From a virus, in IMG/VR virus record IMGVR_UViG_3300025632_000038, positions 1 through 36,680 of that record: a stretch of DNA of 36,680 nucleotides; one strand, written 5' to 3'. Shown piece by piece: positions 2,631 to 31,609 of the stretch. Numbering within the stretch: position 1 is the stretch's first letter; each line of letters starts with the position of its first letter. The notes under the pieces are model-generated. The model was not told where the DNA came from. It saw only the letters and a program-made list of their open reading frames with translations, and did no database searches. Position numbers and translations under genes: made by a program.

Positions 2631-5373
2631 ACAAACCTTTAAGATAGAAGGGTTTCATGGTGGACTAAATACAAATGCAGACCCTAGAGACATTTCTGAA
2701 ATCCAATCTCCCGATATAAAAGATGTTAAAATAAAAAATATTGGGAAAATTGAACTTCTTGGTGGAGTATCAACTGCTTCAACGTCTAATACAATATCAT
2801 TATTAAATAACAAAGGTTTATTTGTTATGGATTCTGATAATAAAGTTAGCGATAATTCTTCATCTAACGAATCTTTAATTTTTGTTTATGATGATGGAGG
2901 AAATAGTTTTGATGTAAAAGATAGTGGGGCATGGAATACAGCAGAAATATCTTTAGACACAAGCAATCCTGTGTTTTATTCTTCAGATGGAGTATTAAGA
3001 ATTGGAGATGGAGATCTTATTGTTTCTGGAGCTTGGTATGGATATGTAAATAGAACTTTATTTAAAAGTTTAAATTCCTCTTCTGGGCTTATTAACAATT
3101 TTATTTCTGAAAATCAATCTATACAAAAACCTTCGTCTGGAAAATGTTTAATATCTGATCCTGAAGTTGGATCTGATGGAGATACAATAAATTCGTCTAA
3201 TTCTGAGTATGATGGGAATATAGCAGATGGAAGTGGGACAAGAGAACCTATTGTTCATTCGTCCGTTAATCTAAGAGTAGGGATTCAACATAATGAAGTA
3301 TTTGAAAACGATGTAACTGCTTGGTCTAGAAACTCATCGTCTCCTTTTGATTGTTCATTGTCTGAACCTGCTGAATCAACTATATATCCAGTTTTAGGAA
3401 ATAATGTCATTTTAGCAACTGGTGATTCTAATAAAACCAAACATATTATGACATTAAATCATAATGATAGTGGAACTGAATTAATAACAGAATTAGGAGA
3501 TGATGAATCTTTTATTTTTTGCGTTTATATTTCTTCTTCAGAATTAGAAGAATTAGACTTTATTTCATTAAACGCTAGTGACAATTCTAGTAATAATGCT
3601 CTTTGGAAATTTTATTCTTCCGATTTAATAAGTAATTCTTGGAATATTCTTGTTGCAAATAGATCTAACTTTTCTACATCTGATCTTGATTTTGAAGAAT
3701 CTATTAAAAGTTTTTCTTTAACTGCGCAACAAAAATGGGGAGGTTCTTATGGAACGGGAAATTCTAGTACAGATGCTCCAGACGTTTATTGGTCAACCCC
3801 TATTAAAGCAAAAAATCCGGGATTAGAGGGTTTTCCTTCTGGGGAATATGAATTTCATTATACTTATTTATACGATGAAGAAAAACAAGAATCCTTACCT
3901 TTTAAATTTGATGATGTAGATAGTGGAGCATTTGAATTTAATAAAATTAATATAGTAGGCGGATCTGTTCTTTTTAATTTTGATATATATACACTTCCTT
4001 TCAATAATGATAATAGCACTTATTCACTTTCTAAAAGAATAATTGGGTCTAGAATATATTATACAACAAAAGAAAACGATAATTATTTCTTAATAGGAGA
4101 AGTAGATTTTATAGATAAAGGATTTAAGTGGTTTCCTGAATCAGATACTATTGATTATGATATGATTAATAGTAATCATAGTTCAGGTATATTATCAAAA
4201 GCTAGTTTAATAAAAAATATAACTCCTGATTCTGCTAACATAGTAGATACATTTAAAAATATAAATGGTTTTAATACTCAAGTAAAAAGTTTAGAATGTA
4301 AATATAAAACAGCTGTTGTTCATGGTAGAAGATGTTATGTAGGTAATATTAAAAAAGATTCAAAACTTCACTCAGATAGGATGATAAAAAGTAGAGTTAA
4401 TAAATTTGATACATTCCCTAGTGATATGGGAGTTGTTGATGTTGCAATAAGAGATGGAGAAAGTATAGTTAAACTAGAAGCTTTTGCAGATAGAATATTA
4501 CAATTTAAACAAAAAAGTTTATACATAATTAACGTAGCAGAAAATATAGATTTTTTAGAAGATGTATATAGAAATAAAGGATGTGAGTTTGATTATCATG
4601 TTACTAAAACTGATTATGGGATTACTTGGTTTAACAAATTTGGTGTTTATTTATTTAATGGTAAATCTGTAGTTAATTTATTAGAAAGAGATAATATTAA
4701 ATTAATTAATGAATCTGATTGGGAGGCATTTATTACAGATGGCGAAGATGGCTCTGCTGATGATACAGATATGTCTTCTGCTCATATAGCTTATATACCA
4801 AAAAGAAGACAAATATTAATTAAAAATGAAAATACAGATATTTTAATATATGATTTATTACTGAGAGCTTGGACAAAAGGTATAGGTAAAATAACAATAT
4901 CAGATTCAAAAATGACTAATTTTGCTCTTGATTCCGATCAAGATTTATTTTATATAACTAATAATGATTCTACAATAGCAACTTTTAATCCAAATTCAAA
5001 AACTTCAAATAATTTTGTTTATACAACAAAAGATATTGATTTTGGACAACCTTCAGTTCGTAAAAAAATATATAAAGTTTATATTACATATAAATCTAGT
5101 GGTACTACTAATGTTTTAGTAAAATACGATACAAACGGACATACAGATTATAATTTACTTTTTGCTGATGGTACAAATTTTACAAGCAATGAATTAGTTT
5201 ATGATAGTGGAAATGCTAATAAATGGATAACAGCAGAGTTAAAACCTAATACATCTTCTGAAGCAAACAATGTAAATTCTTTTGCATTGCAACTTACAAC
5301 AGATTCATCTGTTCCTCCTACATTTCAAATAAATGACATAACAATAGTTTATAGAATTAAAAATGTTAAATAG
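2623..5373 (+). CDS. Tail nozzle / tail tube B-like protein
   Basis: A 916-aa protein. The N-terminus has GFHGGLNTNADPRDI (residues 10-24), followed by PDIKDVKIKNIGKIELLGG. This is the opening typical of large podoviral tail nozzle or stabilisation proteins (T7 gp12-like function, or related beta-propeller tail proteins). The long middle is beta-rich with Ser/Asn/Asp loops. Toward the C-terminus, GITWFNKFGVYLFNG and IPKRRQILIKN with a following WTKGIG look like propeller blades. It is followed by the fibre gene, overlapping by 11 bases. In this role it would form the distal tail tube through which DNA leaves. The length is somewhat above T7 gp12. A dedicated tail hub or surface protein is the alternative. 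Confidence 0.65.
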   Translation: MPKQTFKIEGFHGGLNTNADPRDISEIQSPDIKDVKIKNIGKIELLGGVSTASTSNTISLLNNKGLFVMDSDNKVSDNSSSNESLIFVYDDGGNSFDVKDSGAWNTAEISLDTSNPVFYSSDGVLRIGDGDLIVSGAWYGYVNRTLFKSLNSSSGLINNFISENQSIQKPSSGKCLISDPEVGSDGDTINSSNSEYDGNIADGSGTREPIVHSSVNLRVGIQHNEVFENDVTAWSRNSSSPFDCSLSEPAESTIYPVLGNNVILATGDSNKTKHIMTLNHNDSGTELITELGDDESFIFCVYISSSELEELDFISLNASDNSSNNALWKFYSSDLISNSWNILVANRSNFSTSDLDFEESIKSFSLTAQQKWGGSYGTGNSSTDAPDVYWSTPIKAKNPGLEGFPSGEYEFHYTYLYDEEKQESLPFKFDDVDSGAFEFNKINIVGGSVLFNFDIYTLPFNNDNSTYSLSKRIIGSRIYYTTKENDNYFLIGEVDFIDKGFKWFPESDTIDYDMINSNHSSGILSKASLIKNITPDSANIVDTFKNINGFNTQVKSLECKYKTAVVHGRRCYVGNIKKDSKLHSDRMIKSRVNKFDTFPSDMGVVDVAIRDGESIVKLEAFADRILQFKQKSLYIINVAENIDFLEDVYRNKGCEFDYHVTKTDYGITWFNKFGVYLFNGKSVVNLLERDNIKLINESDWEAFITDGEDGSADDTDMSSAHIAYIPKRRQILIKNENTDILIYDLLLRAWTKGIGKITISDSKMTNFALDSDQDLFYITNNDSTIATFNPNSKTSNNFVYTTKDIDFGQPSVRKKIYKVYITYKSSGTTNVLVKYDTNGHTDYNLLFADGTNFTSNELVYDSGNANKWITAELKPNTSSEANNVNSFALQLTTDSSVPPTFQINDITIVYRIKNVK

Positions 5374-6813: not shown

Positions 6814-7605
6814 ATGGCCACATCAAAAAAAATAAAATCAGCAATTAGATCTAAGGGATCGTCTCAAAGAGAATTTTCAAAAAATTTAGCTGATGTTAGA
6901 AGTAGTTTACAGGAATCTGATTTTTCAAATAAATTATTTGATTTAAAATCAAAAGAAAGAGAATCAAAATACGATCTTGCCTATTCTGCTATAGATTTAG
7001 GAAGTACATTAGCTTCTAGTTTAGAACAAAGAAATGAATTAAAATCTAATATAAAAGAATTTGAAGGGTCATTAAAAGATACTCAAGAAATGAGAATTGA
7101 AAAAAAGCCTTCTTTAATTGATGTATTTAAAAAGAAAGGTTCTTTATCTAGTTATTTACAGGGAGACCAATACTATTTAGGAGATAAAAGTTTAGGAAGT
7201 AAATATGATGTAGCTGCTTTAGGAAGTGAAATAAAGTCTAAAAGAGAAGCTTCTTTATTAATGTCTAATTCTATTACTAATGATACTTTAATTGAAGATT
7301 TAAATTTAGAAGAACCTAAAAATAAAACTACTAGTGACTTAGAAATTAATATACCTCAAAAAACTAAATATAAAGATGGGAAAGAATTTCTTAAAGAGTA
7401 TCCAAAAACAAGTAATGCAATTAAAGAAATGTTAGATCCCACTCCTTATATTAATCCTGATTCAAACCCTTCTTTGGATGATTTTTTAGATGAAAATAAA
7501 ATGTTTGAAAATCAAGATTTTAAAGAATATGAATTAATAAATAACCCTAATAAAAATAATATGAATTATGTTATTCAACAAACTGGTTTAGCAAAAAAAG
7601 GTTAA
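6814..7605 (+). CDS. Candidate internal virion protein 1 (coiled coil)
   Basis: A 263-aa protein with no recognised domain. The N-terminal half is helical and charged (REFSKNLADVRSSLQESDF, then long Lys/Glu helices) and the C-terminal half is Asn/Lys/Pro-rich and probably extended. The start ATG at 6814 lacks a clear ribosome site. It opens a block of five genes between the fibre and the end of the rightward arm, the place where T7-type phages encode small internal virion proteins. That position is the only basis for the functional guess. Confidence 0.5.
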   Translation: MATSKKIKSAIRSKGSSQREFSKNLADVRSSLQESDFSNKLFDLKSKERESKYDLAYSAIDLGSTLASSLEQRNELKSNIKEFEGSLKDTQEMRIEKKPSLIDVFKKKGSLSSYLQGDQYYLGDKSLGSKYDVAALGSEIKSKREASLLMSNSITNDTLIEDLNLEEPKNKTTSDLEINIPQKTKYKDGKEFLKEYPKTSNAIKEMLDPTPYINPDSNPSLDDFLDENKMFENQDFKEYELINNPNKNNMNYVIQQTGLAKKG

Positions 7606-7606
7606 C

Positions 7607-8311
7607 ATGAATAAAAAACTAGCTAAACAAGGAAGATTTGGAGATACTAAAATAGCAAAAACTTCTAAAGGAAGTTTATGGCATGTTAGTAAAGAAGAAA
7701 AAAAATTAATAGACGATTATGGAATACTAGGAGAACAGATAGTAGATATGGTTGGATCAGGAACTATTAATCCTAAAACTGGATTAGAAGAAAAGTTTCC
7801 ACCATTAATGGCTGCTTTAGCTGTTGCTAGTTTCGCTACTGGTACTGCTCAATCTTATGGAAATACAAGAGCTGCTAGGGAACAAGGAAAAACTCAAATG
7901 GGGTTTCTAGATGATTCTTTAAGTTCATTAGGCAAAGCTGAACAAGCTTTAAAAGATTCATTAGGTAGTAGTTTATCTTTACCTACATTAGAGTCTGAAA
8001 GAGTTGTTGGTTCTATTGGAGAGCAAGGTGCTAAGACATTAGGACAGATAAGATCTAAACAAGAAAATATATCAGGTGCATCTGGTTTTGCTAATATTAG
8101 TATGAATACCGATATGAAAAAAGAAGCTAGAAAAATGTATCAAGAAAAAATAGAAGAAGTTGATATTTCTTTAAGTAAAAACTTAAGTGATATTTTATCT
8201 GGTTATGAACAACAAAAATTTGAAATGGACTCACAAAGACAACAATTAGAGCAACAAAAGAAACTTGCTCAACAACAATCAAAAACTAAATATTTTGGGA
8301 TATTCGGATAA
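7607..8311 (+). CDS. Candidate internal virion protein 2, Ala-rich hydrophobic segment
   Basis: A 234-aa protein. Residues about 65-80 (PPLMAALAVASFATGT) form an Ala-rich hydrophobic segment, followed by helical repeats and a Gln-rich coiled-coil C-terminus (QQLEQQKKLAQQQ). An N-proximal membrane-active segment with a Gln-rich coiled coil is what T7 gp14-like ejection proteins show, and the gene position matches. An AAAGG ribosome site lies in the preceding gene's last codons. The next gene overlaps the stop by one base. The assignment as an ejection protein is inference from architecture and order. Confidence 0.55.
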   Translation: MNKKLAKQGRFGDTKIAKTSKGSLWHVSKEEKKLIDDYGILGEQIVDMVGSGTINPKTGLEEKFPPLMAALAVASFATGTAQSYGNTRAAREQGKTQMGFLDDSLSSLGKAEQALKDSLGSSLSLPTLESERVVGSIGEQGAKTLGQIRSKQENISGASGFANISMNTDMKKEARKMYQEKIEEVDISLSKNLSDILSGYEQQKFEMDSQRQQLEQQKKLAQQQSKTKYFGIFG

Positions 8312-9255
8312 TGTCTAAAGCTTTAGATTCATTAAATAGTATATTAAGATACTCACAAGCAAGAGAACAACAAAAGATTGATAGGTCTTTAAGCTTATTG
8401 GATATGGGAAATAGATTACAACAGCAAAAATATGCTAGAGAAGAACAAATACAAAGAATGAGCATTGCAAAAGAAGCTGCTAAAGATGCAAATGAATTAA
8501 GAGATCTTGAAAGAGAGTATAGATTTGATCCTGAAAGAATAAAAAGAAAAGATGAAATAGAAAAAACAAGTTATGAAATTAATAAAATAGCTTTAGAAAA
8601 TGCAAAGAATAAACAAACAGACGAAGAAGTAGATAAAGTATTCTTAGCATTAGATAAAATGCAAATAAAAGAACAACAACAACAAATGAAAGAAATAGTA
8701 TCTGCTAACATAATACCTTCAGGTGTTATAAATTATTTAGTTAATGTATGGGATGAAGATGTAACAGATATAAATAGTTCAATGGTAAGTTTTCATAAAA
8801 AAGATATAGAAGAAAAAAGTGAAATACAAAATTTTATTAAACAACCAAATAGTACAGAATTAATAAATTCATTAATATACGATATAAAAACTTCTACTGT
8901 TGGTGAACCAAAATATTCTAAAACTTTAAGAAGTTTAAATAATTTACCTAATGATTATTTTAATTACGATATAACAAAAAAAGTTCAGTATTTTGATATA
9001 AAAGATAAAATTGATAAAACTATATCTAATATAGATTTTTATGACAAACAAGAAAACATGATAGACCTTAATCAAGCGATTGAAAGAAATGTTGAAAAAA
9101 AAATAAATAAAAAATTACGAACAACTCTTGATTTTATTCAAGATAATGTAGAAGGCGTTGATCAATATATTTCCCCAGAAACATTTGAATCAATGTTGGG
9201 AATGTTAAATCCTGAAACTGGAAAAAATTACACAAGAGAAGAATTAGGATTATAA
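8311..9255 (+). CDS. Candidate internal virion protein 3 (Gln/Glu coiled coil)
   Basis: A 314-aa protein. Residues about 14-125 are almost entirely helical and rich in Gln, Glu, Lys and Arg (for example QQKYAREEQIQRMSIAKEAA), a long coiled coil. The C-terminal part is more globular, ending in LNPETGKNYTREELG. No enzymatic motif. It starts on the previous gene's stop and is followed by the giant protein gene three bases later. By position it would be the T7 gp15-like element of an ejection assembly, although the sequence itself is not diagnostic. Confidence 0.5.
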   Translation: MSKALDSLNSILRYSQAREQQKIDRSLSLLDMGNRLQQQKYAREEQIQRMSIAKEAAKDANELRDLEREYRFDPERIKRKDEIEKTSYEINKIALENAKNKQTDEEVDKVFLALDKMQIKEQQQQMKEIVSANIIPSGVINYLVNVWDEDVTDINSSMVSFHKKDIEEKSEIQNFIKQPNSTELINSLIYDIKTSTVGEPKYSKTLRSLNNLPNDYFNYDITKKVQYFDIKDKIDKTISNIDFYDKQENMIDLNQAIERNVEKKINKKLRTTLDFIQDNVEGVDQYISPETFESMLGMLNPETGKNYTREELGL

Positions 9256-9258: not shown

Positions 9259-12200
9259 ATGCCAATAAGTGAATCTATTAGGAAAGTAGCTTTAGAGTTA
9301 GAAAGACAAAAAAGAGAAAATTTAAATAACCCATCTCAATCTTTAAATGTATATCAAATAAATCAAACTAATAATCAAGAACAACTTACTGATAGACAAA
9401 AATTTGATTTACAAAGAAAAAAACAACAAGAAAGATTAAAATCTTTACAAGAATCTTCTTCCTCCTCTCAAACTAATCCAGATCAAAATCTTGGAGTTCT
9501 AAAAAACTTAGGTCAATCTTTATATAAAGGTGCGGCTGCTGGTCTGTACGAATATGGAGAATCTTTTGCAATTGGAGCTCCCGGATTAGCTGAAGCTAGT
9601 TTAAAAAGATTTGGGGATGTTGATTTAGGAATACAAGAAACAGTTAGGGAATACCAAGAAGAAGATCTTTTTGCTAAAGTTGCTGGTGGAGTAGGTATGG
9701 GAGCCGGTTATTTAACAGGCCTTCCAGTCAGATTAACAACTCGTCTTCTTGGTGGAGCTGCTACTCTTGGAGCTGCTAAATTATTTGGTAAAGAAACAGT
9801 TAAATCAGCTGTTAGTACTATAGCAAAATCAGCAGCTATAAAAGGAGGAAAACCTTTATCTAAAAAAGCACAAAAAGAAATTACAGAAAAATTTTCTAAT
9901 GTTCTTTCTAAGACAATGAAGTCGACAGGTTTAAAAACTGCAAAAGCAAGTAAAACATTTGAAAAAAGTTTTGCTACAAATATAAATGCTAGGATAGTCC
10001 AATTGCAAAAGTCTGGTCAAATTAATTCAGCTCAAGTTGATGCAATGAGAAAAATGGCTAATGTGGTTGCTAATAAAGGTGTTCCTGTTCATACTCTTCA
10101 AAGTTTAGCTTTTGCTAAATTCGGTACAGGGATGAAAGGAAGATTCATGGGTGAATTTCTTGAAGATGCATTTGTTTTTTCAATTGCTGACGGAGCAATG
10201 AGTATTACTCAACAAGGTCAAAGAATATTAAGAGATGAACAAGATTCGATTAATTTTGGATTTGGTATGGGTGGAGTAATGAGAGAAGTAGCTTTTGGTT
10301 TTGCAGCTGGAACTGCGGTAAACGTAGGAGCTTCCTATTTCAAACCTGTGGGAAAAATGTTAAAATCTAAAGTTGATTTTGGTCAAGGAGTTAGATCTAT
10401 TTTAGGTAAGAATACATATAAAGATAAAAGTTTAACGTATTTAACTGGCCAATTAACTCATATGGCAGAACAAAATAAATATAATTTAAGATCTACTAGA
10501 TTAAATTTTACTAAAGATGGTGAAAAAAGCTACATAGACTTAATGAAGTTTAATAAAGGTAATGAAAAACTAACTAAAAAATCACTTGAAAAAGAACTTA
10601 GAAGAGAATTTGGAGATGATGCAGAGAAAAAAGCTATTGATTGGTTAATGTCTGAAAGAAAACAATATGGTAAGGATATAATAAGAGAGTCTGTAAAAGA
10701 AGGTTTTGAAAATTATAAAGTTTTATTTCCTAGAATGATGATGACTGGTGCTATTATGTCTGGAACTCAAGGTTTCCAAAATTATATAGAAGCAGGAGAT
10801 CAATTTGAGTTTGACCCTACAGACTATATATCTAATTTTGTTATTGGTGGATTCACCATGAGAAGAGGTAATTTCGGTAAAGTAGATATTGACACTAAAA
10901 TACAAAAATTAAGAGAAGGACTAGATGCTTTAGGCGTAGAGTCTAGTAATACATTTTTTGCTTCTAGTTTATCAGGTGGGAATGAAAGATTTGGAGTAGG
11001 TCTACTAAGGGATAATCCTGAATTAGCAAAATTATTAGAAGATGAAAGAATTGTTAGCGATGAAGATGATAGTATTACAAATGATTCAATGGCAGAAAAT
11101 GAAAGAACATTTTTAGATCTTGATTCAGGACAACCAATTGATCCTTATGGCGGTAGAATGAATATATTAAAAGGATTAATGGATGAAGACTTCAACCATG
11201 TAAAGACATTAAATCAAATAACAGATAAACAAGCATCTAAAATTATTAAATTATTAGATTCTCAAGGTTTAAAGACTGCTGAAGATTTTGATAAAGCTTT
11301 ACAAGATAGGGTAGGTGAAGCAACATCGGGTATGGAAGAATCTCTTGTAAGCGTATTAAAAGATCTTAATTCTGCTAATTTAGATGATCCAAATTTCTCT
11401 ATTAAAGAAAATAATCAAGGTATTACAATTCCTGCTAATTTAAAAATTAGTAATGAGCTTCTTGAAAGAGCTCGTAATGGAGAATTTTCAGAATGGTTAT
11501 CTGATAAAAAAGGATCTGAAGCTGAAGAAGAATTATTAGACGCTGTAAGAAGTATTGAAACTGTTATAGCTGTTACTGAAGGTTTAGGTAGGACTTCTTT
11601 TGATACTTCTCAAAGTGTTAATAAAATTGATAACGCTTCTAATTTAAAAACAATATATGATATTATAAGAAAATCTGAAAATAGTATTGACGAATCTGTA
11701 TCTAATAAAGATGGTAGGTCTAGTTTTAAATTTACAGAACTAGAATCTTACATTATTCCTATGATGAGAAATATGGGAAACAACAATACAAAAAAAATAA
11801 TGAGCGTCCTTTCTGAAAAGAATATGGATTCAAAACTATTAACTTTATTTGAAAATGCTGGTATCTTAGTTAAAAAAACTGGAGAACCATATAAAATAAT
11901 AAACGATTATTCTTCTATAAAAACATCAGATGATGCTAGTAAAGTTGATTTAGGTAAAATACATGGCATACTAAAAGCTTTAGGAGAGTTTGAAATAACA
12001 GAAACTCCGAATAACCAACAAGTAGAAATAAGCAATGTAAATAGTCTAAAAGGTCAATTAGGTAGTTTAGGAGTAAAAGTAGACTTATTAAATAGAAAGA
12101 ATTTAGAGTTCATGTATCAATTAGTTTTAAATGATATAAATAAAATTAGATTAAAAAATTCTGTTGTTGATCCTTCTGATGTAGATTTTATTATTCAACA

Positions 12201-15200
12201 ATCTGGTGATCCAAATCTTAGTATTCCGGGAGTATTAGACGATAAAGGAATAAGGAATTTTCAATTAAAGAAAGTATCTATACCTAGTAATTTAGAATTA
12301 GAAAATAGGTATAATACGATATTAAGTAATTTAAAGAAAACTAAAGTTGTTAATATAGTTTCTGATGTTGTCCGATTAAATCCTGAAGATGCAGATGTTT
12401 TAGAGAAAAAAATAAATAATATTTATTCAACAGATAGATCATCTGATAATATAAAAATAGAAACATTATTTGAAATGATGTCTAATAGAAAGTTGACTAC
12501 AATAAAACAACAAATGCAAGAACACATTCTTCAATTTGGTGATCAAGCTAGAATAGACATATTGAATATGTTAAAGCAACAAAATATTATTGAAAGAAAT
12601 GTAGATGGCGATTTAAATATAATAGAAGACAATTTAACTATAGAAAAATTTGAAACAATAAAACAATTTGTAAATAGAAAAGGAATGCCTTCTGAATTAG
12701 TTCAACAAAGAATTGATGAAAGAAAGGAAATAAATAGAAAATATATAAAAGATTCTAGTGATGTAATTAAAAACCCTTCATTAAGTATTGATCAATTTTT
12801 TTCAAAATATAAATTAAAACAAACACTAGATGATGGATCTATAAATTATGTTAGTCATGCAGATTCTGATAATATTGATAAGAAAAATTTATTTGATAGT
12901 TTAATATTTGAAGATAGTGATGAAGGAAGAGTAATAAATAGAAACTCTATACAAAGAATTGCTGATCAAATAGCAACAAAAGAAAATGTAGATTTTAATA
13001 ATTTAAAACTCGAACAAAAAGAAAAAGTTCTTGCAGATATTAATCAAATAGCATTTGGTAGTAAAGATAGAATCTCTACTGTTAGAAAAATGAGCATTAG
13101 AAATAACGAGTTATCAATTGATGAAAATAAAGAAATTATGCAAAGGAATCCTGTTCATTCTTACTTTGAGTCTTTAGATTTAGATTATGGAATATTTGAT
13201 AATACTATTGTATATACAGAATTTAATCAAAATGGAAACTTAGTAGAAAAAACATATAATATTCTTCAAACTCAAAACATTCCATTAAGCCTAGTAAATC
13301 AAATACAAAAAATAAGAGATAGGGTTTCATCTAGTTTAAATAGTAAAAGTTTAAATCCTTCTGACCCTATTTCTCCTGAACCAAATGATATAGGTATAAA
13401 GAAACTAGATGTTTATGATGGAATGGATAGTATTATTATTAATACGAGAGATCAACAAAAAATTGTAGATGATTTTTATCGATTTCACAAAGAGCACGTA
13501 GACAAAGTAGATAAAAAAACAAGGAATGTATTAAACAAATTGAAAAAATCATTTGATAATGCTGAAGATATATACAAATATAAAGAAGACAAAGTCGAAT
13601 TAGCAACTAGGTTTTTAGTATTTGAAGTAGCTTTTAAGAGTAAAGAAAATGATGTTTTTTATAAAGTTCTTAATGAAACAAATCCTGAACAAGTAGACAA
13701 ATATGTAAAAAGAATAAAACTTGTTACTACAAAGAATTTTGTTAGACCGACTAAATCTTATTTAGAATCAATAAAACAAGCTAGAGAACAATTACTAGGT
13801 AAAGAAGATAAAGTAGTAAAATTAATTAATAAAAGAATAAGAAAAAAAGGTCATAATGTTGTTGTTTGGGATGATGACTCTTCTGAATCAATGTCTCAAT
13901 TAATCAATGATTTAAAAGAAGAATTTCCAGAGTTTAAAGATTATAATCTTAACAATATAATAGGTACAGCTCATTCAAAGGTTTCTGCTTTTGATAGTAT
14001 ATCTTATCTTTCTAGAGATGCTATGATGGAATATCATTCTTATTTAGGTCACGATACAAATTCTACAAACCCTATTAAACCAGTTATTTCATCCCAAGGT
14101 GAAGGGAAAACTCTTTTATATGGTAAGACTTTGTTTGTTTATTCTCCTGCTCTAGATGGGTTCTTTAAAAACAATCCAACAGTAGATATTTTACTTACTA
14201 AATCTGGTGCAAAAGCATACGATGAAAAAGATGGTGAAGAGTCTACAATAAAAAATGTAAGATTTGATGATTTAAATAAAGAGTCTTATTCTTCTTTGAT
14301 AAAAACTATTGATATAGATGCTTTGGGTTTGAGACCTGAGAAAGATGCAAGTTTACTATCAGCTAGTGTTTCTGATGCTGATTATAATTACATGAATTTA
14401 GATGAACATTCAAAAGCATTTTCAGAAGTAGAAGGTGAATTAGACGCTAATCTTAAAACAATGAAAGACATAATGTCTGATCCATATAGAATGAATGCCT
14501 TTATGAGAAGTAAAATGGAAGAAGGTAAGATTCCTCAAGACTCTCAAGAAGGTTCTTTGCAAAACTTAAGTAATTTAATGTATTACTTGCATTTAAAAGA
14601 CTCTGCAGACCCTACAGATTATAGTATAAATCAAGTTCAAAAATATTTAGCAAAAGAATACATAGATACTATATTTTCTAATAGAAGAGCGATTACAAAT
14701 AGAGTTTACGATGAAGACCCCGGTGTATCTTTTAGGTATGGAGGTCAAGCACCTCTTGTTGTTTCTGGTAAAAGTCATTTGGGAGAAGGTAAAAAAACTA
14801 GATTACTACCAACTCTTTTTAATGATCAAAATAAAATGATTCTTAGAGGTCAATTAATGTTACCTCATAAAGAAAAAGATACTAAATTATCTCAATTAGG
14901 GACTAAAGAAATTAGAATAGTACAAAATGAAAAGGTTTTAACTGTATCGGAATTTATTAATGAAGCTAAAGCATCTACAGAAATAAGCAAAGAAAGTATT
15001 GATGTTTTAGATGCATTTGAAGATCAAATAAAATCTGATGGTACTTTAGGTTCTGCTCATGAAATGATTAATGCAATATCTCAAGAAACAGGAACTAGAT
15101 ATGAAGTAGGTGTAATCTCTAGAAGAAATCCAAGAACAAGACCAAACGATATTACATTATTAGGTTTAAAGGGATTTTTAGAAGAAAGTCAGGGGTTGGG

Positions 15201-17880
15201 TGTAGAAATTAATAGTTTTGATGTTGCAAATGTTTATGAAGGTGATTATGATGCTGATAAAGTAGATTACTTTTTTGCTCACGATGATTATATGTTTGAT
15301 TATATTAAAAGAAATCAAGCTTATTATGTCCAAGGAATTGATCCCTCTGAATTACAAAATTCTCCTACATTTACTTTCCAAATGGAAGCTTCAGATTCTA
15401 GGTCTTCTATTTTATCAAAAATTGGTAGTTCAATATCTTATAAACAAGGTATTGGTATTGTTCAAAAAACTCCTAGAAAAATAAATTATTTACAAAATTT
15501 AGGGAGCAATGAATATTTGTTTGATGATGCACAATCAGAAGCTTGGGAAGATGAGATAAGAATTAATCCAGAAACTAATGAAAAGATCGGCCCTTCATTG
15601 CTATATAAAAGTGGAGACAATCAATTTGTAACTGTTGACACTCAAACGTTAGCTTACTATCAAAGAGCTGGTTTAGAAATTCAATATATTTTAGATGGAT
15701 CAGGAAAAATAAATAAAAACATAGCATCTGATATTTATAATTGGGCTGATAAATTCTTATTTCCAAAAAATTCAGAATCAATTTCTCCTAAAAAAGCAAC
15801 GAGTACAGATATAAATGAAATTATAAAAAATGGTCAAACTCCAGATGGCAAAAGAGTTAGAATATTTCAAAAGTTTACATTAGACGAAAAAAGTGGCAAG
15901 TATAAAACATCAACTGAACTTAACAATGCTGACAAATTAATTATTAAAGAATTTTTAAATCAACAAAATAAGTTATTAAATGCATTTGGAGATCAAACTT
16001 ATACGGAAGGTTCTCCTAGAAAATCTACTTTTTACGATTTATATAATGGAAGTAGAGTATTTAGAGATTTTCACAAAGATGTATATAAAGGGTTAGAAAG
16101 GCAATTATTTTATAAAAAGAAACCATTATCTAGTAAAGATAAAAAGTATTTAAAAGGTTTATTAAACCCAGAAAGTGGAGCATTTGAACCTATTGAAAGT
16201 AATATTAAAGAAATATACGATGGAGAAGGTGGTGGTTATTTAGATAGAATGGCTGTAGCAATTGCTAAAAGCGAATTTATGGAAGATAAAAAACAATCTA
16301 ATCTTGATATAGAGACATATGTTGAAGTAGATAATTGGTTCAATAATATGTTGAATACGCCTTCAGATGATGATGGGAACTTTGAATCAATAAATAAAAA
16401 AGAAAGTGAAGAGTTTATTTTAGATGTAGAAGAAAAAATAATTGATTCTTCTATTGATAAAATCAGTAAAGGGATTGTTAAGGACACAAAAGAATTTAAT
16501 TCTTATATAGCAACTATTAAAAGATTGTCTAATAAAAAGAAATTTATTGAAAAAAGTTCTTATGGATGGAGATGGAAAAAACATAAAATAGATGGATTGA
16601 ATTTTGTAATAAATAAAATGCAAGAAAATGTTCAAAATAAATATAAACAAAATATTAAAAACATAAATCCTTTTAATTTAAAGTATAAAAAATATATACC
16701 TATTGAAGATAGCAATCTAGTTAAATCTATTATTCACTCTAATTCTTTACATGCTTTTTTAAAGAAAAAACATTTTAGTGATTATGATAGTTGGACTGAA
16801 ACTTTAGGAGTAGACACTGATGCTCGTAAAGACTTACAATCAATAAAAGATTTTAACGCAAAAGTTTTAGGTGGAAATACATTAATAGATGACATTATCC
16901 CAAATGGAAAGAGAACAATAATAACAGATAATCGTATGTTTGATTATATACAACAACATAAAACTGATATTAGTAACGTTTGGGAATTAAGACAAAAATT
17001 CTTATTAAATAAAATAAACAAACATGGTATAAATTTTTTATATGCTTATATGGAGCCTACTAGAGACAGAACTTCTATAGGTGTATTTAATAATAGAGCA
17101 ATTGCTATTCCTTATAAAGAATCAAAAAGATACTCTCATGGTATTCAATTACTAACATCTATGGCTCAAGGAAATGAGAAGTTATTTGATTCATTTGAAG
17201 GTGTTATGGTGAAAGATTATCAAACAGAATCCAAAGGACATTTAATAGATATTCTTAATGCTAATGAACATTATAGAAAATTCTTTACTAAAGATGTTGA
17301 ATTAATGGACTTAACAGATCCTTCTTATGATAATTATCCTTTAATGGGTTTTGATAAAAATACAGAAAATAGATTAAATACTAATATGGATTTTAGTTGG
17401 TCTGCTAAAATGTTATCATCAGATCCATTATCTACAATAAATAAATCTACAATAGAAGTATATAGAGATTTTGTTGAAGTGTATACAGATAAAACTAATG
17501 AAGATTTTATTGAATTTACTACTAAATTAAATGATATTGACGAGTATTCTGCTAGAACGGATTATGTAAATCCTTTAAGATATATGGAAAAAAGGTTGTC
17601 TTTAGATGAATTATTTAGAAAATTAAGTAAAGATAATGTATACGATGTTATTGGACAAGATGGAAAACCTAGTAATATGTTAGAAGATGATAAATATTTA
17701 AATAATAAATTTTTTAAATTCAAACCTAAATTAGTTAAAACTAATCAAAAGTTAATAAGTATGATGAAAGGAATGAGAGAGATGAAAAATGAATTAAATA
17801 GATCTGTTAGAGAAAATCCAGCGGGAGATTCTGGGCATGAAACTATTAGAACTATAAAGGAGATAGCAGATTGCCTGTAG
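9259..17880 (+). CDS. Giant virion protein with RNA polymerase-like double-psi beta-barrel motifs
   Basis: 2873 aa, the largest gene in the window. Residues about 139-178, 333-361 and 493-535 are Gly/Ala-rich and hydrophobic, suggesting a membrane-interacting N-terminal part. Residues 1955-1965 read RRNPRTRPNDI and residues 1995-2001 read GDYDADK. That pair matches the R-x-P...I and D-x-D-x-D signatures of the Mg-binding barrel of RNA polymerase beta' and of cellular RNA-dependent polymerases. Residues 1642-1654 (VDILLTKSGAKAY, with K1648 and K1652) resemble the lysine-bearing second barrel. Order and spacing resemble single-chain polymerases of the QDE-1/YonO/crAss-virion type. The rest is helical and unrecognised. 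Its place among ejection-protein genes suggests an injected polymerase. The motifs are seen directly; polymerase activity is inferred. Confidence 0.6.
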   Translation: MPISESIRKVALELERQKRENLNNPSQSLNVYQINQTNNQEQLTDRQKFDLQRKKQQERLKSLQESSSSSQTNPDQNLGVLKNLGQSLYKGAAAGLYEYGESFAIGAPGLAEASLKRFGDVDLGIQETVREYQEEDLFAKVAGGVGMGAGYLTGLPVRLTTRLLGGAATLGAAKLFGKETVKSAVSTIAKSAAIKGGKPLSKKAQKEITEKFSNVLSKTMKSTGLKTAKASKTFEKSFATNINARIVQLQKSGQINSAQVDAMRKMANVVANKGVPVHTLQSLAFAKFGTGMKGRFMGEFLEDAFVFSIADGAMSITQQGQRILRDEQDSINFGFGMGGVMREVAFGFAAGTAVNVGASYFKPVGKMLKSKVDFGQGVRSILGKNTYKDKSLTYLTGQLTHMAEQNKYNLRSTRLNFTKDGEKSYIDLMKFNKGNEKLTKKSLEKELRREFGDDAEKKAIDWLMSERKQYGKDIIRESVKEGFENYKVLFPRMMMTGAIMSGTQGFQNYIEAGDQFEFDPTDYISNFVIGGFTMRRGNFGKVDIDTKIQKLREGLDALGVESSNTFFASSLSGGNERFGVGLLRDNPELAKLLEDERIVSDEDDSITNDSMAENERTFLDLDSGQPIDPYGGRMNILKGLMDEDFNHVKTLNQITDKQASKIIKLLDSQGLKTAEDFDKALQDRVGEATSGMEESLVSVLKDLNSANLDDPNFSIKENNQGITIPANLKISNELLERARNGEFSEWLSDKKGSEAEEELLDAVRSIETVIAVTEGLGRTSFDTSQSVNKIDNASNLKTIYDIIRKSENSIDESVSNKDGRSSFKFTELESYIIPMMRNMGNNNTKKIMSVLSEKNMDSKLLTLFENAGILVKKTGEPYKIINDYSSIKTSDDASKVDLGKIHGILKALGEFEITETPNNQQVEISNVNSLKGQLGSLGVKVDLLNRKNLEFMYQLVLNDINKIRLKNSVVDPSDVDFIIQQSGDPNLSIPGVLDDKGIRNFQLKKVSIPSNLELENRYNTILSNLKKTKVVNIVSDVVRLNPEDADVLEKKINNIYSTDRSSDNIKIETLFEMMSNRKLTTIKQQMQEHILQFGDQARIDILNMLKQQNIIERNVDGDLNIIEDNLTIEKFETIKQFVNRKGMPSELVQQRIDERKEINRKYIKDSSDVIKNPSLSIDQFFSKYKLKQTLDDGSINYVSHADSDNIDKKNLFDSLIFEDSDEGRVINRNSIQRIADQIATKENVDFNNLKLEQKEKVLADINQIAFGSKDRISTVRKMSIRNNELSIDENKEIMQRNPVHSYFESLDLDYGIFDNTIVYTEFNQNGNLVEKTYNILQTQNIPLSLVNQIQKIRDRVSSSLNSKSLNPSDPISPEPNDIGIKKLDVYDGMDSIIINTRDQQKIVDDFYRFHKEHVDKVDKKTRNVLNKLKKSFDNAEDIYKYKEDKVELATRFLVFEVAFKSKENDVFYKVLNETNPEQVDKYVKRIKLVTTKNFVRPTKSYLESIKQAREQLLGKEDKVVKLINKRIRKKGHNVVVWDDDSSESMSQLINDLKEEFPEFKDYNLNNIIGTAHSKVSAFDSISYLSRDAMMEYHSYLGHDTNSTNPIKPVISSQGEGKTLLYGKTLFVYSPALDGFFKNNPTVDILLTKSGAKAYDEKDGEESTIKNVRFDDLNKESYSSLIKTIDIDALGLRPEKDASLLSASVSDADYNYMNLDEHSKAFSEVEGELDANLKTMKDIMSDPYRMNAFMRSKMEEGKIPQDSQEGSLQNLSNLMYYLHLKDSADPTDYSINQVQKYLAKEYIDTIFSNRRAITNRVYDEDPGVSFRYGGQAPLVVSGKSHLGEGKKTRLLPTLFNDQNKMILRGQLMLPHKEKDTKLSQLGTKEIRIVQNEKVLTVSEFINEAKASTEISKESIDVLDAFEDQIKSDGTLGSAHEMINAISQETGTRYEVGVISRRNPRTRPNDITLLGLKGFLEESQGLGVEINSFDVANVYEGDYDADKVDYFFAHDDYMFDYIKRNQAYYVQGIDPSELQNSPTFTFQMEASDSRSSILSKIGSSISYKQGIGIVQKTPRKINYLQNLGSNEYLFDDAQSEAWEDEIRINPETNEKIGPSLLYKSGDNQFVTVDTQTLAYYQRAGLEIQYILDGSGKINKNIASDIYNWADKFLFPKNSESISPKKATSTDINEIIKNGQTPDGKRVRIFQKFTLDEKSGKYKTSTELNNADKLIIKEFLNQQNKLLNAFGDQTYTEGSPRKSTFYDLYNGSRVFRDFHKDVYKGLERQLFYKKKPLSSKDKKYLKGLLNPESGAFEPIESNIKEIYDGEGGGYLDRMAVAIAKSEFMEDKKQSNLDIETYVEVDNWFNNMLNTPSDDDGNFESINKKESEEFILDVEEKIIDSSIDKISKGIVKDTKEFNSYIATIKRLSNKKKFIEKSSYGWRWKKHKIDGLNFVINKMQENVQNKYKQNIKNINPFNLKYKKYIPIEDSNLVKSIIHSNSLHAFLKKKHFSDYDSWTETLGVDTDARKDLQSIKDFNAKVLGGNTLIDDIIPNGKRTIITDNRMFDYIQQHKTDISNVWELRQKFLLNKINKHGINFLYAYMEPTRDRTSIGVFNNRAIAIPYKESKRYSHGIQLLTSMAQGNEKLFDSFEGVMVKDYQTESKGHLIDILNANEHYRKFFTKDVELMDLTDPSYDNYPLMGFDKNTENRLNTNMDFSWSAKMLSSDPLSTINKSTIEVYRDFVEVYTDKTNEDFIEFTTKLNDIDEYSARTDYVNPLRYMEKRLSLDELFRKLSKDNVYDVIGQDGKPSNMLEDDKYLNNKFFKFKPKLVKTNQKLISMMKGMREMKNELNRSVRENPAGDSGHETIRTIKEIADCL

Positions 17881-20708
17881 ATTGCAATACTATAAAAAAT
17901 CCATTAACATCTAGGTTAATAAATGGAATAGAGGATTGGGCTAATAATCAAGAAACTCAAGATAATGTTAGAGCTCCTTATCAAGCTGCTATATCAATGT
18001 TTGAATCAAGATTTAATATCCCAATAGAAGCAGCTGCTTTATTAGGAAAAGATCAAACTAGGAACTTTTTAAGTACAGGAAGTATTGAAAGATTTAAACT
18101 TGACTTAAAAGAATATGTCGGTAGAGTAAAAAAAGGTTCTTTAACTGGATGGGAAGCAACAGAGAAGTTTTTAACTGGAACAATGTTAGGTAAAAAAGAT
18201 CCTGTTTTAGCTGAAAGTTTAAAAGAAATAAGAGATATTGTAAATAATAATTCATTAAGAGAACAGCAAACAACCTCAGAATTTCTTAGCATTATAGAAG
18301 ATATAAAAGTTTCTGGAGGTGTTGAATTTGGAACATTTACTGATAGAAAATTTAATAAAGCATTAAAAGAACATAGAAGGCTTCAACTAGCACATATAAA
18401 AGCTTTAGACTCTACAGATAACGAATTAAGATTAAAGACAGAAAAAGAATTAAAAGACTTTGAACGTAATGGAAATGTAAGATCTTTTGTTGATTTTGTT
18501 AAAATTATTGAAAAAACTATGCCAGCTGCTATAAAGTTAAAATACGAAAATGAGAAAAAATTAGCAGATGATGGAGATAAAGAAGCGATTGATAGAGTTA
18601 AGAGATATGATTCAGGCGATTTGTTAGTAAAAATTTCACCAAAAGTTGATTCAGACAAAGAATATTTACGACAAGTAGGCGTTGACGAAAACTTAATAAG
18701 AGCAGTAACAAAATATAATGACTTAATGAATAAGTCTTATTCTACTTTAAAATTGGGTATAGACAAAAAAATAGATACTATTATTAAAAAAATAGAAAAC
18801 AAACAAGGTTCTTTTGATTCTATAGAAAAACTACAAGAACTAAAAGACAATCTAAAGTCTAAATTAATGCCTAAGTATAAAGAAGATGGATACTTTCCTC
18901 ATTTTACTAATGAATTGAATGCAAAATTTATGGACAAATTAATGCCATATTTTGATAAAATGGAAACTTCTCAAATTGATGGTAAGCATAAATCTAAAGA
19001 CATTGACGATATAATTAATGAGTTAAATGTTGCAATACCTTCTTTTGCTAAAGCTAGAACTCAAAATACTAACTATGATTATAACAGAAATTTTGTAGAT
19101 GTTATTAGTACATATATTCAACAGGTAAATAAATTTAATACAAATGCTTTCTTAACTGATTCACATCTTAAATCATTAGATCTTGCTAGAAAAATGTATG
19201 GAGAACCTAAAGATTCGCAATACTCTGGTAAAATAGTAGACACAATTGAAAGTTTATATGGTTCTATGAATGGAGATGCAACAGTTAAAGGTTCAATGAA
19301 TGAAATTAAAAAAGCTCTTCTTTCTTATCAATTTATAAATAAATTAGGTTTTAGTCCTAGATCAGCAGCTAGAAACTATACTCAGGTATTAATGAATTTT
19401 GTAACATTTGGAAGTTCTAATATAATTCAATCAAGAAAATATTTAAAACAAAACGCTCTTGAATTTAATTTAGATGAATTTTTAAAAGATGCTAACTTGT
19501 ATATGGATACTTCAGAAGCTGCTATAGAATCTGGAATAAATGTAAAAAGTGCCAATGAAATTAAAATTAGAAGAATGAATGAAGAAGGAAAAATAATTTA
19601 TTCAGATGAAGGGAGTTTTGCATATAAAGGTTTAAAAGTATTTTCTTCTGGTTTATCTAAAATTGCACAAAAAAGTTCTTGGATGCATAGAACAGTTGAA
19701 AATTCTAATAGAAAATTTACAGCTAGTATTGCATTTGGGCAGATTAATAAAGTAATGGACGAAAGTGATAGATTTGAAAGGTATCTTCAAAAGAGAATAG
19801 AAAGTGGAGAACTAAAAGGGACTGTTGCTAGTAATAAAAAAAGATATGCAAAAGCTTATGCTAAGAATATGGTTATATTAAATCATTTTGATTATGAATC
19901 ATACGCTAAGGCTAAAGTAATGAAAGAAGGTGTAGGTCAGTTTTTATTTCAATTTCAACATTACGGAATGGAATTTTTAGAAAGAAACTACTCTGTAATG
20001 AGAGAAGCAAAATCAGATTTAAAATACGCTGAATCATTTAAAGATGCCAAGGGTGTTCATAAGTTTATGAATATGGGGTTTGCTTATTTTCTAGCACCTG
20101 CTTTAATTAGTTATATTAGTGGGTATAATCAAACTTTAGTAGAGCATACAGGAAAAGAAATCCTAGATGATCTATCTATGATATTATTTTCAGATCTTGA
20201 CAATGAAGAAGATCGTGAAAAAATAAACAAACAATTCTTTGGAAAAGGCATTATTACTTCTAAGCTTGGCCCTACTGTTGGAACTATATTAGATATAGGT
20301 GTAATGACAGAGTTATTAAATGCTGATAATGAGTACCTAGATAACCTAGCTTTCTCAATTGGTGAATCTACAAGTGATAGTAATATGGATATATCAATGC
20401 AACAATTAAAAATGATAAATCAAATGTTAGGTAGGACTGTTGATAGATATATACCTATGTATAGTAGAGGACATTTACCAGATGCTATTATGCAGGAAGT
20501 ATTTACTGCTTACCCAAAAGGAAAAGATCCAAAAACAGGAGAAGATCAAAGGACTTTAATTAGAGACATATCTCCTTTTATAGAAAAAAACTATCCACAA
20601 TACTTTGATAAAATAAAAAAGAAAAAGAAATCTAAAAAAAGATATAAAAATCTTCCATTATCTTTAAGAAATTCTTTATTATATTTAGAGAAAGAAGGCA
20701 AACGTTAG
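17871..20708 (+). CDS. Large candidate internal virion protein, 945 aa
   Basis: A large protein starting at TTG (17871) with AAAGGAG upstream at eight bases spacing; it overlaps the giant gene by ten bases. It begins MPVDCNTIKNPLTSRLINGI and is mostly helical. Residues about 492-515 (LGFSPRSAARNYTQVLMNFV) look like the conserved core of C-terminal domains found in very large phage polyvalent/virion proteins, though I cannot name the family with certainty. Residues about 732-752 (FMNMGFAYFLAPALISYISG) form a hydrophobic segment. The C-terminus is strongly basic (KIKKKKKSKKRYK). I saw no convincing lysozyme or transglycosylase motif. Last gene of the rightward arm; an ejected partner of the giant protein is the most likely role. 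Confidence 0.6.
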   Translation: MPVDCNTIKNPLTSRLINGIEDWANNQETQDNVRAPYQAAISMFESRFNIPIEAAALLGKDQTRNFLSTGSIERFKLDLKEYVGRVKKGSLTGWEATEKFLTGTMLGKKDPVLAESLKEIRDIVNNNSLREQQTTSEFLSIIEDIKVSGGVEFGTFTDRKFNKALKEHRRLQLAHIKALDSTDNELRLKTEKELKDFERNGNVRSFVDFVKIIEKTMPAAIKLKYENEKKLADDGDKEAIDRVKRYDSGDLLVKISPKVDSDKEYLRQVGVDENLIRAVTKYNDLMNKSYSTLKLGIDKKIDTIIKKIENKQGSFDSIEKLQELKDNLKSKLMPKYKEDGYFPHFTNELNAKFMDKLMPYFDKMETSQIDGKHKSKDIDDIINELNVAIPSFAKARTQNTNYDYNRNFVDVISTYIQQVNKFNTNAFLTDSHLKSLDLARKMYGEPKDSQYSGKIVDTIESLYGSMNGDATVKGSMNEIKKALLSYQFINKLGFSPRSAARNYTQVLMNFVTFGSSNIIQSRKYLKQNALEFNLDEFLKDANLYMDTSEAAIESGINVKSANEIKIRRMNEEGKIIYSDEGSFAYKGLKVFSSGLSKIAQKSSWMHRTVENSNRKFTASIAFGQINKVMDESDRFERYLQKRIESGELKGTVASNKKRYAKAYAKNMVILNHFDYESYAKAKVMKEGVGQFLFQFQHYGMEFLERNYSVMREAKSDLKYAESFKDAKGVHKFMNMGFAYFLAPALISYISGYNQTLVEHTGKEILDDLSMILFSDLDNEEDREKINKQFFGKGIITSKLGPTVGTILDIGVMTELLNADNEYLDNLAFSIGESTSDSNMDISMQQLKMINQMLGRTVDRYIPMYSRGHLPDAIMQEVFTAYPKGKDPKTGEDQRTLIRDISPFIEKNYPQYFDKIKKKKKSKKRYKNLPLSLRNSLLYLEKEGKR

Positions 20709-23062: not shown

Positions 23063-23893
23063 TTAAAACAAACCCATTTGATCACTAGGTTCGTAGTTTA
23101 TTATTAAGTATTCTTTTCTCTCTTTATTTCTATTTTCGTCCGTAGCTCCTTGATATTTTAAAGTAATAGTTCTTACGTCATACTCTTTATACAAATCAAA
23201 GACCTCTTCTCTGTAGTCGTAGGATACCATAAATTTACCACCATTATTATGTATTTTATCAACTTTTTCTTTTAATCTGATATGGTCTTCAGCATTAAAA
23301 TTATGTTGATAATAGTCTCCTTTATCTGTTGCTATGAAATAAGGCGGATCGAGATACCAAAAATCGTTTTCTTTTGGTTTATACCTATCTATAAGATCTC
23401 CAAAGTCTAAGTTTTCTATCGTTGAACCTCCTATCTTTTTTCTTGAATACTCAAACTCTTTCATCCAATTTTTATTCCAATCTTTTACCATTGACATAGG
23501 TGTGTGAATTAATTTATTAAAACTATGTCTTATACAATAAAAGTATTTAGCAGCCCTTAAAGGATCTGGTATTTCTATGTGTTGCTTTTCTTTTATTTCT
23601 GTACGAAACCCATCAAACAATTCTCTAGACTTAGGCAACCAATCTAAGTAATAAACTAATTTATCTAAATCATACATTATACAATTATATAAATTAACTA
23701 TGTTATTATCTTTGTCATTTAAAACATTCCATTTTGCTTTTTCTTTTCTAAAAAACATAGATAACCCACCAGAGAATACTTCAAAATACCTATGGTGAGG
23801 AGGTATAAGAGGAACAAATTGTTTGCTCAACATATACTTCCCACCATAATAAGGTATTACAATAGGGCAATCGTACCAATCAAGAGATGGCAA
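23063..23893 (-). CDS. Dam-like DNA adenine-N6 methyltransferase
   Basis: 276 aa. YYGGK (15-19) is the amino-terminal AdoMet motif, FEVFSGGLSM (37-46) is motif I, and LDPPY (181-185) is the catalytic DPPY motif IV. The order fits class D12/Dam methyltransferases. The likely start is a TTG at 23893 with GAGG six bases before it; no ATG lies upstream of the essential YYGGK motif. It overlaps the DUF932 gene by 14 bases. No restriction endonuclease is adjacent, so it is an orphan enzyme that may protect phage DNA or affect packaging or transcription. Target specificity (GATC by family) is presumed, not shown. Confidence 0.85.
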   Translation of the reverse strand: MPSLDWYDCPIVIPYYGGKYMLSKQFVPLIPPHHRYFEVFSGGLSMFFRKEKAKWNVLNDKDNNIVNLYNCIMYDLDKLVYYLDWLPKSRELFDGFRTEIKEKQHIEIPDPLRAAKYFYCIRHSFNKLIHTPMSMVKDWNKNWMKEFEYSRKKIGGSTIENLDFGDLIDRYKPKENDFWYLDPPYFIATDKGDYYQHNFNAEDHIRLKEKVDKIHNNGGKFMVSYDYREEVFDLYKEYDVRTITLKYQGATDENRNKERKEYLIINYEPSDQMGLF

Positions 23894-24677
23894 CTTTAGC
23901 CTCTTTGTATGCTAACTTCTTAATCTTAGGATACAATCTCTGTTCTAATCCATGAGTAGAATCTAGATTTCTATTCATATGATGTGTTAATACATTAGTA
24001 CCTACATTTAATAAATCCCAAAAAGTTCTAGGTTTTTCAATGATAATTTTATCAGTAACCAAAGTATTTGCATAATCTGGAAACATTTTCATCATTTCAA
24101 TTAAATGATTTTCTTGGAACTTTGTTTCTGCAAGTATCGGAAACTCTTCTTTAAATACAAGTTTTGTTTTATCAACAGTTTCTTCAATAACATTACTAAT
24201 ATCATTAAGAGAAATATTAGATTTAATATGTTTGTTTTTGTATTTACTTGCAACAATTCCTACTACCATGCCATTTAGACATATCAATCTAAACGCACCA
24301 CCTAGTATATTTAAACCAACAGTTCCATTATAACTATTCATAATGTTAATTTCAGGAGTCATCTCATCTGCTTTAGACATTTTAACAACTTGTTTTGGAA
24401 AGTGCCAACTAAATTGTGTTTTTGCACCACCATTCAAGACATTAACTTCTTTAGGTTCACCTCCTAATTTCTTAATAAGTGGTTCTGCTATATTCATAAT
24501 AGTTTCATTCTTTACAAGTTTGTAACTATTTGTCATACAACTAAGAACTTTATTATTATCTTCTCTTACTATGAATTTATATCCAGTTTTATCAAGTAAC
24601 GTAACATCTTGTTTGTCATCTAATGGATAACCAACTGCTGGTACTTCTTTTACTGAAAACATTGCGTCCTGTAACAT
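23880..24677 (-). CDS. DUF932-family protein
   Basis: 265 aa. The middle shows TQFSWHFPKQVVKMSKADE, INIMNSYNGTVGLNILGGAF and RLICLNGMVVG, the conserved signature of DUF932 (related to DUF945), a family common in plasmids and phages and of unknown biochemical role. It lies between a small membrane protein and the Dam-like gene within the replication operon. It has no obvious catalytic triad or metal-binding cluster. The start ATG is one base after the previous stop and is preceded by AAAGGAG. Family assignment is from recall of the motif. Function remains open, though association with replication or anti-restriction loci is typical. Confidence 0.75.
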   Translation of the reverse strand: MLQDAMFSVKEVPAVGYPLDDKQDVTLLDKTGYKFIVREDNNKVLSCMTNSYKLVKNETIMNIAEPLIKKLGGEPKEVNVLNGGAKTQFSWHFPKQVVKMSKADEMTPEINIMNSYNGTVGLNILGGAFRLICLNGMVVGIVASKYKNKHIKSNISLNDISNVIEETVDKTKLVFKEEFPILAETKFQENHLIEMMKMFPDYANTLVTDKIIIEKPRTFWDLLNVGTNVLTHHMNRNLDSTHGLEQRLYPKIKKLAYKEAKVAIS

Positions 24678-31475: not shown

Positions 31476-31579
31476 AATTACTCCTATAATGTTAATACCC
31501 AAGTTATCTTAAAATTACTATATATATACATAAACTATCTATGCGTCTGTATGCATACAATATAGGCTACTAAACACAC

Positions 31580-31609
31580 ATTCTAGACATATATGTTGTA
31601 TCTAGACAA
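31580..31609 (-). promoter_or_regulatory. Possible second leftward promoter
   Basis: Minus strand: TTGTCT (31609-31604), an 18-base spacer, then TAGAAT (31585-31580), 5 of 6 matches to the -10. The octamer TCTAGACA is repeated at 31582-31589 and 31601-31608 and overlaps both boxes, so it may be a regulator site. It would serve the alpha-CTD-like gene. Confidence 0.35.

Follow-up and report, generated by a model that had tools for sequence, protein, structure and literature searches.

A putative virion-packaged RNA polymerase with a predicted two-barrel core in the giant protein of an uncultured tailed-phage lineage

Gene organization of the window

The window analysed here is the whole of IMG/VR record IMGVR_UViG_3300025632_000038, a stretch of 36,680 bases that is regarded as a tailed-phage genome because it encodes a terminase large subunit. 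A giant protein of 2873 residues is encoded on the plus strand, and its motifs and neighbours are collected in Table 1. All the motifs named in an initial annotation of this DNA were recovered at the residues assigned to them there.

Table 1. Features of the window in order of position
Feature	Position	Strand	Evidence or remark
916-aa virion-type protein (putative stabilisation/tail protein)	2623..5373	+	Assigned solely from position and N-terminal sequence; family searches negative
Cassette gene 1 (263 aa), upstream of the putative polymerase	6814..7605	+	Order conserved in family
234-aa protein, candidate ejection protein (small, internal to the virion)	7607..8311	+	Conserved order; weak Venkman gp46 likeness
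314-aa coiled-coil-like protein directly upstream of the putative polymerase	8311..9255	+	Conserved order
Giant protein, 2873 aa, with predicted single-chain two-barrel RNA polymerase core	9259..17880	+	ORF, translation, 58 homologous contigs
N-terminal region, residues ~1–559	9259..10935	+	Fastest evolving; glycine/alanine-rich amphipathic stretches
Predicted polymerase core, residues 1380–2420	13396..16518	+	AlphaFold2 on 32-sequence alignment, pTM 0.73; Foldseek to gp66, QDE-1, RDR2
Predicted barrel B (lysine barrel), residues ~1600–1660; invariant K1623 (nt 14125–14127) and K1652 (nt 14212–14214)	14056..14238	+	Invariant columns, predicted strands
VDILLTKSGAKAY, residues 1642–1654, lysine segment named in the initial annotation	14182..14220	+	K1648 variable, K1652 invariant
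Predicted barrel A (metal barrel), residues ~1827–2008	14737..15282	+	Predicted strands
RRNPRTRPNDI, residues 1955–1965	15121..15153	+	Counterpart of R-x-P motif: rpoC RAPTLH, crAss-like RNAP YRIPT
GDYDADK, residues 1995–2001, predicted Mg-binding D-x-D-x-D (D1996, D1998, D2000)	15241..15261	+	Aspartates in 99/99 loci; hhalign to crAss-like DxDxD
Long helix, residues 2058–2081, candidate bridge helix	15430..15501	+	Predicted helix at model 679–702, invariant IG..K..R
945-aa protein, last cassette gene	17871..20708	+	Conserved order; 10 nt overlap with the putative polymerase gene
D12 class N6-adenine DNA methyltransferase gene	23063..23893	-	Adjoins DUF932 protein gene at 23880..24677
Terminase large subunit	34594..36162	+	phrog_38, E 2.6e-73

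The giant gene belongs to a cassette whose order, with proteins of 263, 234, and 314 residues, the giant protein, and a protein of about 945 residues, is kept throughout the family. An ORF of 904–1026 residues follows the giant gene at a spacing of −40 to +16 nt at almost every locus that contains this ORF in full. Virion-type genes lie upstream of the cassette. The first 62 residues of the 234-aa protein (window positions 7607–7795; GDT...HV...GSGTINPKTGLEE) share 40% identity with Venkman gp46, a weak likeness to a member of a T7-like virion cassette that perhaps reflects a common ejection-protein signal, and comparison of Venkman gp49 with the 916-aa protein revealed no similarity. The initial annotation placed the giant gene among ejection-protein candidates, and this placement agrees with the conserved cassette, which includes small putative ejection proteins and has structural genes alongside.

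Relatives of the window extend this picture. The 50,339-base relative G001 (loci L074 and L075) encodes a tail fibre, a major head protein (phrog_1328), a portal (phrog_156), terminases, and an endolysin, and it is regarded as a near-complete, circularly permuted genome because the portal gene is split across both contig ends. The terminase, capsid, and portal proteins show approximately 24–28% identity to those of named phages, and none of the best named matches is crAss-like. Contigs of the lineage reach approximately 54 kb and have no close named relative.

The block on the opposite strand contains replication genes, namely those of a DnaB helicase, a Holliday resolvase, the D12 methylase, and a PD-(D/E)XK nuclease. 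Searches of eight contigs for family A and B DNA polymerases (PF00476 and PF00136) gave no match, and the controls of these searches worked. The near-complete relatives G001, G002, G013, and G014 carry genes for DnaB helicase and resolvase and have no recognizable family A or B DNA polymerase. Additionally, two non-coding stretches were observed near the junction of the divergent blocks, at 30849–31235 (387 bases, with a GC content of 0.36, above that of the genome) and at 31503–31671 (169 bases). These stretches are candidates for an early promoter or structured RNA region; neither gave an Rfam match, and searches for a phage-specific promoter motif, promoter-like repeats, and Rfam families found nothing convincing.

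Conservation of the giant protein

To describe the family, we gathered relatives by four scans of IMG/VR, which yielded 58 contigs, some with more than one locus, and a total of 99 loci with 37 distinct sequences. Homologs of the giant protein were found neither in named phages nor in GTDB genomes. The complete ORFs of the relatives span approximately 2820–3000 residues. Among the IMG/VR relatives, identity to the window protein in the core ranges from 97% down to approximately 31–34%, and in the half preceding the core it falls to 23–26% for distant relatives.

All 99 loci contain R.PRT.P.D followed by.D.D.D. The second motif reads GDYDADK at 94 loci, GDYDVDK at four, and GDYDYDK at one, so that alanine, valine, or tyrosine, respectively, separates the second aspartate from the third. 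Hence, the three aspartates singled out by the initial annotation are retained in its homologs without exception. That annotation had further regarded D-A-D as a divergent form of the motif, a view that does not hold up, since relatives also carry D-V-D and D-Y-D and the crAss-like versions DFDID and DFDVD lack the glycine as well. In the 32-sequence alignment, the invariant positions are K1623, G1650, K1652, R1956, P1958, R1959, T1960, P1962, D1964, and G1995–K2001. In contrast, K1648 is replaced by glycine in L013, L017, L018, and L020. Residues 1642–1654 had been proposed as the lysine-bearing barrel; the proposal fits K1652 and fails for the variable K1648, and the other invariant lysine is K1623.

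When the window protein is compared with relatives of 66–68% identity, the most conserved 50-residue blocks are residues 1951–2000 (95%) and 1601–1650 (93%), and these two blocks coincide with the two proposed barrels. Against the 97% relative, dN/dS is approximately 0.01–0.14 across the core segments, with 0.14 in residues 1601–1700 and approximately 0.05 in residues 1941–2100, and it reaches 0.44 in the first 500 residues, where dN is 0.043 versus 0.002–0.015 in the rest of the protein. Collectively, the results indicate that the polymerase core is under purifying selection and that the conservation of the motifs exceeds chance.

Predicted structure of the core

Residues 1380–2420 were modeled with AlphaFold2 from the 32-sequence alignment, giving a pTM of 0.73 and a mean pLDDT of 75. 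In the Foldseek search with this model, the best PDB match is gp66 of the crAss-like phage phi14:2 (6vr4; E 2.4e-6, probability 1.00), followed by QDE-1 (E 1e-3 to 4e-3) and maize RDR2 (probability 1.00), and the probabilities for 6vr4, QDE-1, and RDR2 range from 0.96 to 1.00. The non-virion RNA polymerases (nvRNAPs) of PhiKZ and AR9 are also matched, with lower probability, and matches ranked lower still are noise, with cellular β' subunits scattered among them at probabilities below 0.1. The TM-scores to PDB entries are low, at 0.17–0.36 for the best five, which we read as a common core with differently placed domains. The matches in the viral model library include several crAss-like polymerases as well as close relatives, for which TM is 0.69 and 0.67. 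The control model of residues 560–1660, comparable in size and pLDDT (pLDDT 75, pTM 0.43), gave nothing below E 0.6 in Foldseek, and the polymerase signal is absent from it. Separately, several viral proteins among the BFVD entries beginning with A0A516 match the core at TM of approximately 0.24–0.43, which suggests that environmental viruses harbour additional lineages of two-barrel polymerases not yet described.

In the model, the predicted strands of barrel A are 1827–1834, 1860–1862/1865–1868, 1949–1956, 1964–1973, 1982–1984, and 2001–2008, and those of barrel B are 1608–1612, 1620–1623, 1625–1627, 1644–1647, and 1652–1654. Around the metal-binding motif, the predicted order runs from strand 1949–1956, which ends at R1956, through strands 1964–1973 and 1982–1984, the short helix 1986–1990, and the D1996–D2000 loop to strand 2001–2008 and a further helix. 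The same strand-helix-loop-strand order is expected for rpoC around RAPTLH...NADFDGDQMAVH. Collectively, the model predicts a two-barrel RNA polymerase fold, the outcome that the initial annotation had anticipated from its reading of the motifs as double-psi barrels of a polymerase, and the fold match together with the invariant aspartates argues for that reading. The barrel order of single-chain polymerases that it had put forward is also that of the predicted barrels, with B before A as in gp66 and QDE-1.

Sequence comparison with known polymerases

To compare the motifs with those of known enzymes, we used 14 crAss-like sequences; in most of them YR[IV]P precedes D-[FY]-D-[IV]-D. A gap-free pairing of the window protein (RRNPRTRPNDITLLGLKGFLEESQG) with a crAss-like sequence (YRIPTEGKQSISILKVVGFLDDIQG) is possible over the segment that starts at R-x-P and ends at the next Q-G. 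With hhalign, barrel A aligns to the 14-member crAss-like profile with RxP on RxP and DxDxD on DxDxD (P 0.001), a score matched by none of 200 column shuffles. For barrel B alone, 8 of the 200 shuffles score as high, which is not significant, and for the long core the figure is 2 of 200, which is marginal. At a low threshold, the alignment of the long core is collinear and pairs FDSIS with DAQ-x-[FY]I, VDILLTKSGAK with IDxVxFxSxxKVG, and GGQ with GGxxIQ, followed by RxP and DxDxD. The crAss-like barrel-A HMM finds the correct position in the distant members L042, L048, L021, L044, and L015, all of which beat all their own shuffles; on the window protein itself the match is within noise, as 5 of the 140 shuffles with a reported match score at least as high. 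Only the 14-member profile aligned the motifs, and hhalign of the family against the single sequences of gp66, gp64, and gp96 gave nothing useful. As a separate observation, Flavobacterium phage Fpv1 (L063), which is outside the Crassvirales classification, has a 13.2-kb 'virion structural protein' gene with a crAss-like DYDID polymerase motif.

Predicted barrel B resembles both the rpoB segment NK1073GVIS...PVDIVLNPLG and the crAss-like segment K...IDxVxFxSxxKVG. In E. coli rpoB, K1073 (HGNKGVIS) precedes PVDIVLNPLG at a spacing similar to that between K1623 and VDILLTKSG in the window protein.

Searches of Pfam, PHROGs, and PDB sequences with the giant protein returned chance matches only. 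Since Pfam also misses gp66 and P23-45 gp64, which are proven RNA polymerases, the missing Pfam match is weak counter-evidence. The profile match to the haloperoxidase 9iz8 (E 0.0012) was rejected, as it runs past the motif without the aspartate pattern, concerns an unrelated enzyme, and is absent from the fold search. In 11 contigs, the Pfam RdRP family PF05183 stayed without a match even at E 10, with a positive control in B. subtilis. The T7-like RNA polymerase family PF00940 likewise gave no match, but the control of the same search was silent; moreover, T7-like RNA polymerases are absent among the Foldseek matches listed for the core model.

Discussion

Based on these observations, the giant protein of the virion block contains, by computational analysis, a predicted polymerase core of the two-barrel kind that is conserved and whose catalytic residues are intact. 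In our view, this protein is likely a single-chain DNA-dependent RNA polymerase of the two-barrel type that is packaged in the virion, and we infer its packaging, ejection, activity, and DNA template. Both double-psi β-barrels would be located in one chain, with B (K1623 and K1652) before A (R1956-x-P1958 and D1996-x-D1998-x-D2000), as in gp66 and QDE-1. The aspartates would bind the metal ions and the protein would synthesize RNA. By analogy with gp66, P23-45 gp96, and N4 gp50, and drawing also on an analysis of transcription genes in crAss-like phages (PMC7886860), we expect that the giant protein would be stored in the head. It would then be ejected through the short tail, a morphology that this phage presumably has, ahead of the DNA and together with the neighbouring small proteins, and it would transcribe the first-entering phage genes before the host RNA polymerase is used. 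The N-terminal half may, as a guess, have a role in packaging, passage, or membrane contact, and its first approximately 559 residues are possibly an ejection or membrane part.

A bolder version of this proposal describes an independent injected lineage of two-barrel RNA polymerases, apart from those of Crassvirales and P23-45, in which the giant protein is the sole phage-encoded polymerase of a widespread, uncultured group of small-genome phages and possibly also primes replication. Because the near-complete members have no recognizable DNA polymerase and a second RNA polymerase was not found, the entire programme would be set off by one ejected protein. We hold this version only tentatively and think it rather doubtful.

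The remaining explanations question the virion location, the activity, the product, or the fold itself. It is unlikely that the protein is a two-barrel RNA polymerase made late and transcribing late genes within the cell, like the non-virion enzymes of P23-45 and PhiKZ. Such enzymes exist (PMC10770324), and packaging is not readable from sequence; however, the giant gene sits well inside the structural block, beside putative ejection proteins and away from the early genes, and approximately 1400 residues are N-terminal to the core, whereas the non-virion gp64 of P23-45 has only 616 residues. Distinctly improbable is a virion or ejection protein of polymerase descent that retained the fold and lost catalysis, as might be argued from the letters around the aspartates, which deviate from the canonical DFDGD. 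Against this, the three aspartates, R1956, P1958, K1623, and K1652 are invariant, whereas the flanking regions show only approximately 25–30% identity, and crAss-like gp66, which is reported to be active, likewise lacks the glycine (PMC7886860).

We give even less credit to the reading of the protein as a primase or as a PolD-like DNA polymerase with two barrels. PolD has the same two-barrel core (PMC4996933), and the missing family A and B DNA polymerases would be consistent with such an enzyme. However, PolD has no entry among the 50 listed PDB Foldseek matches for the core, those listed being RNA polymerases; the giant gene is in the virion block, apart from the DnaB helicase, resolvase, and nuclease genes of replication; and phages of such size often rely on the host DNA polymerase. 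Finally, it is hardly credible, and already largely refuted, that the motif is a coincidence within a tape-measure or ejection protein of the ordinary sort, for although the pattern R.P.{25,50}D[FYLIVW]D.D turns up in 15 of 1800 family proteins after shuffling, so that the bare R-x-P/D-x-D-x-D pattern alone is within chance for a protein of such length, the fold match is specific to RNA polymerases, the control model is clean, and the residues are invariant in 58 contigs.

Virion-packaged two-barrel RNA polymerases are already known from crAss-like phages and P23-45. The putative enzyme of this uncultured bacterial virus points to an additional lineage of viruses that bring a transcription enzyme of their own into the host cell. 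If this is true, a further lineage, whose longest contigs are approximately 50 kb, would imply that delivery of a cellular-type polymerase to the host is commoner than thought, and the family joining cellular RNA polymerases and the eukaryotic RNA-silencing polymerases would gain a deeply divergent branch. With family A and B DNA polymerases missing too, the start of transcription and replication in this lineage becomes a concrete question.

Comparison with known systems

E. coli rpoB and rpoC provide counterparts of the window motifs in the right strand order, namely RAPTLH...ADFDGD and NKGVIS...PVDIVLNPLG; in contrast, they are two subunits rather than one chain, and there is no sequence-level match. 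In the N4 operon, the giant vRNAP (gp50, Schitoviridae) is encoded with ejection proteins (PMC12633501). The cassette plan of the window is similar, with a giant single-chain protein encoded together with small putative ejection proteins. However, the N4 vRNAP has a T7-like RNA polymerase fold, whereas the window core matches two-barrel polymerases by fold.

The initial annotation saw the only parallel in crAss-like phages, which is too narrow, since gp96 of the Thermus phage P23-45 is a two-barrel virion RNA polymerase fused to the tape measure protein (PMC10770324). Like gp96, the window protein would be a two-barrel RNA polymerase within a giant phage virion protein. In gp96, DFDGD lies near residue 779 of 5002, whereas DYDAD in the window protein lies at 1996 of 2873. 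A signature of a tape measure or tail tube was not found in the window protein, and hhalign did not match it to gp64 or gp96. QDE-1 and plant RDR2 have the same single-chain two-barrel fold, and the N-P-x-x-x-P-x-D-I wording of the window protein presumably resembles theirs; they differ in being eukaryotic RNA-silencing enzymes, that is, cellular RNA-dependent RNA polymerases.

The closest counterpart by fold is gp66 of phi14:2 (6vr4), the best PDB match. Like gp66, the window protein would be a single-chain giant virion protein with barrel B followed by barrel A, and it has R-x-P approximately 40 residues before a D-x-D-x-D with a non-glycine residue and approximately 800–870 residues after the motif. 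In contrast, sequence similarity to gp66 is significant only locally, in barrel A, and the window chain is approximately 700 residues longer, mostly before the barrels. The lineage also differs from Crassvirales in its contigs of at most 54 kb and its head genes, none of whose best named matches is crAss-like. Because these features give no indication that the lineage belongs to Crassvirales and only the sequence similarity of barrel A is significant, we do not file the protein as a member of the crAss-like family. Our best reading, by analogy, is that the protein, from a lineage outside Crassvirales, functions in the way crAss-like gp66 does and would represent a new lineage of an already known kind of polymerase.
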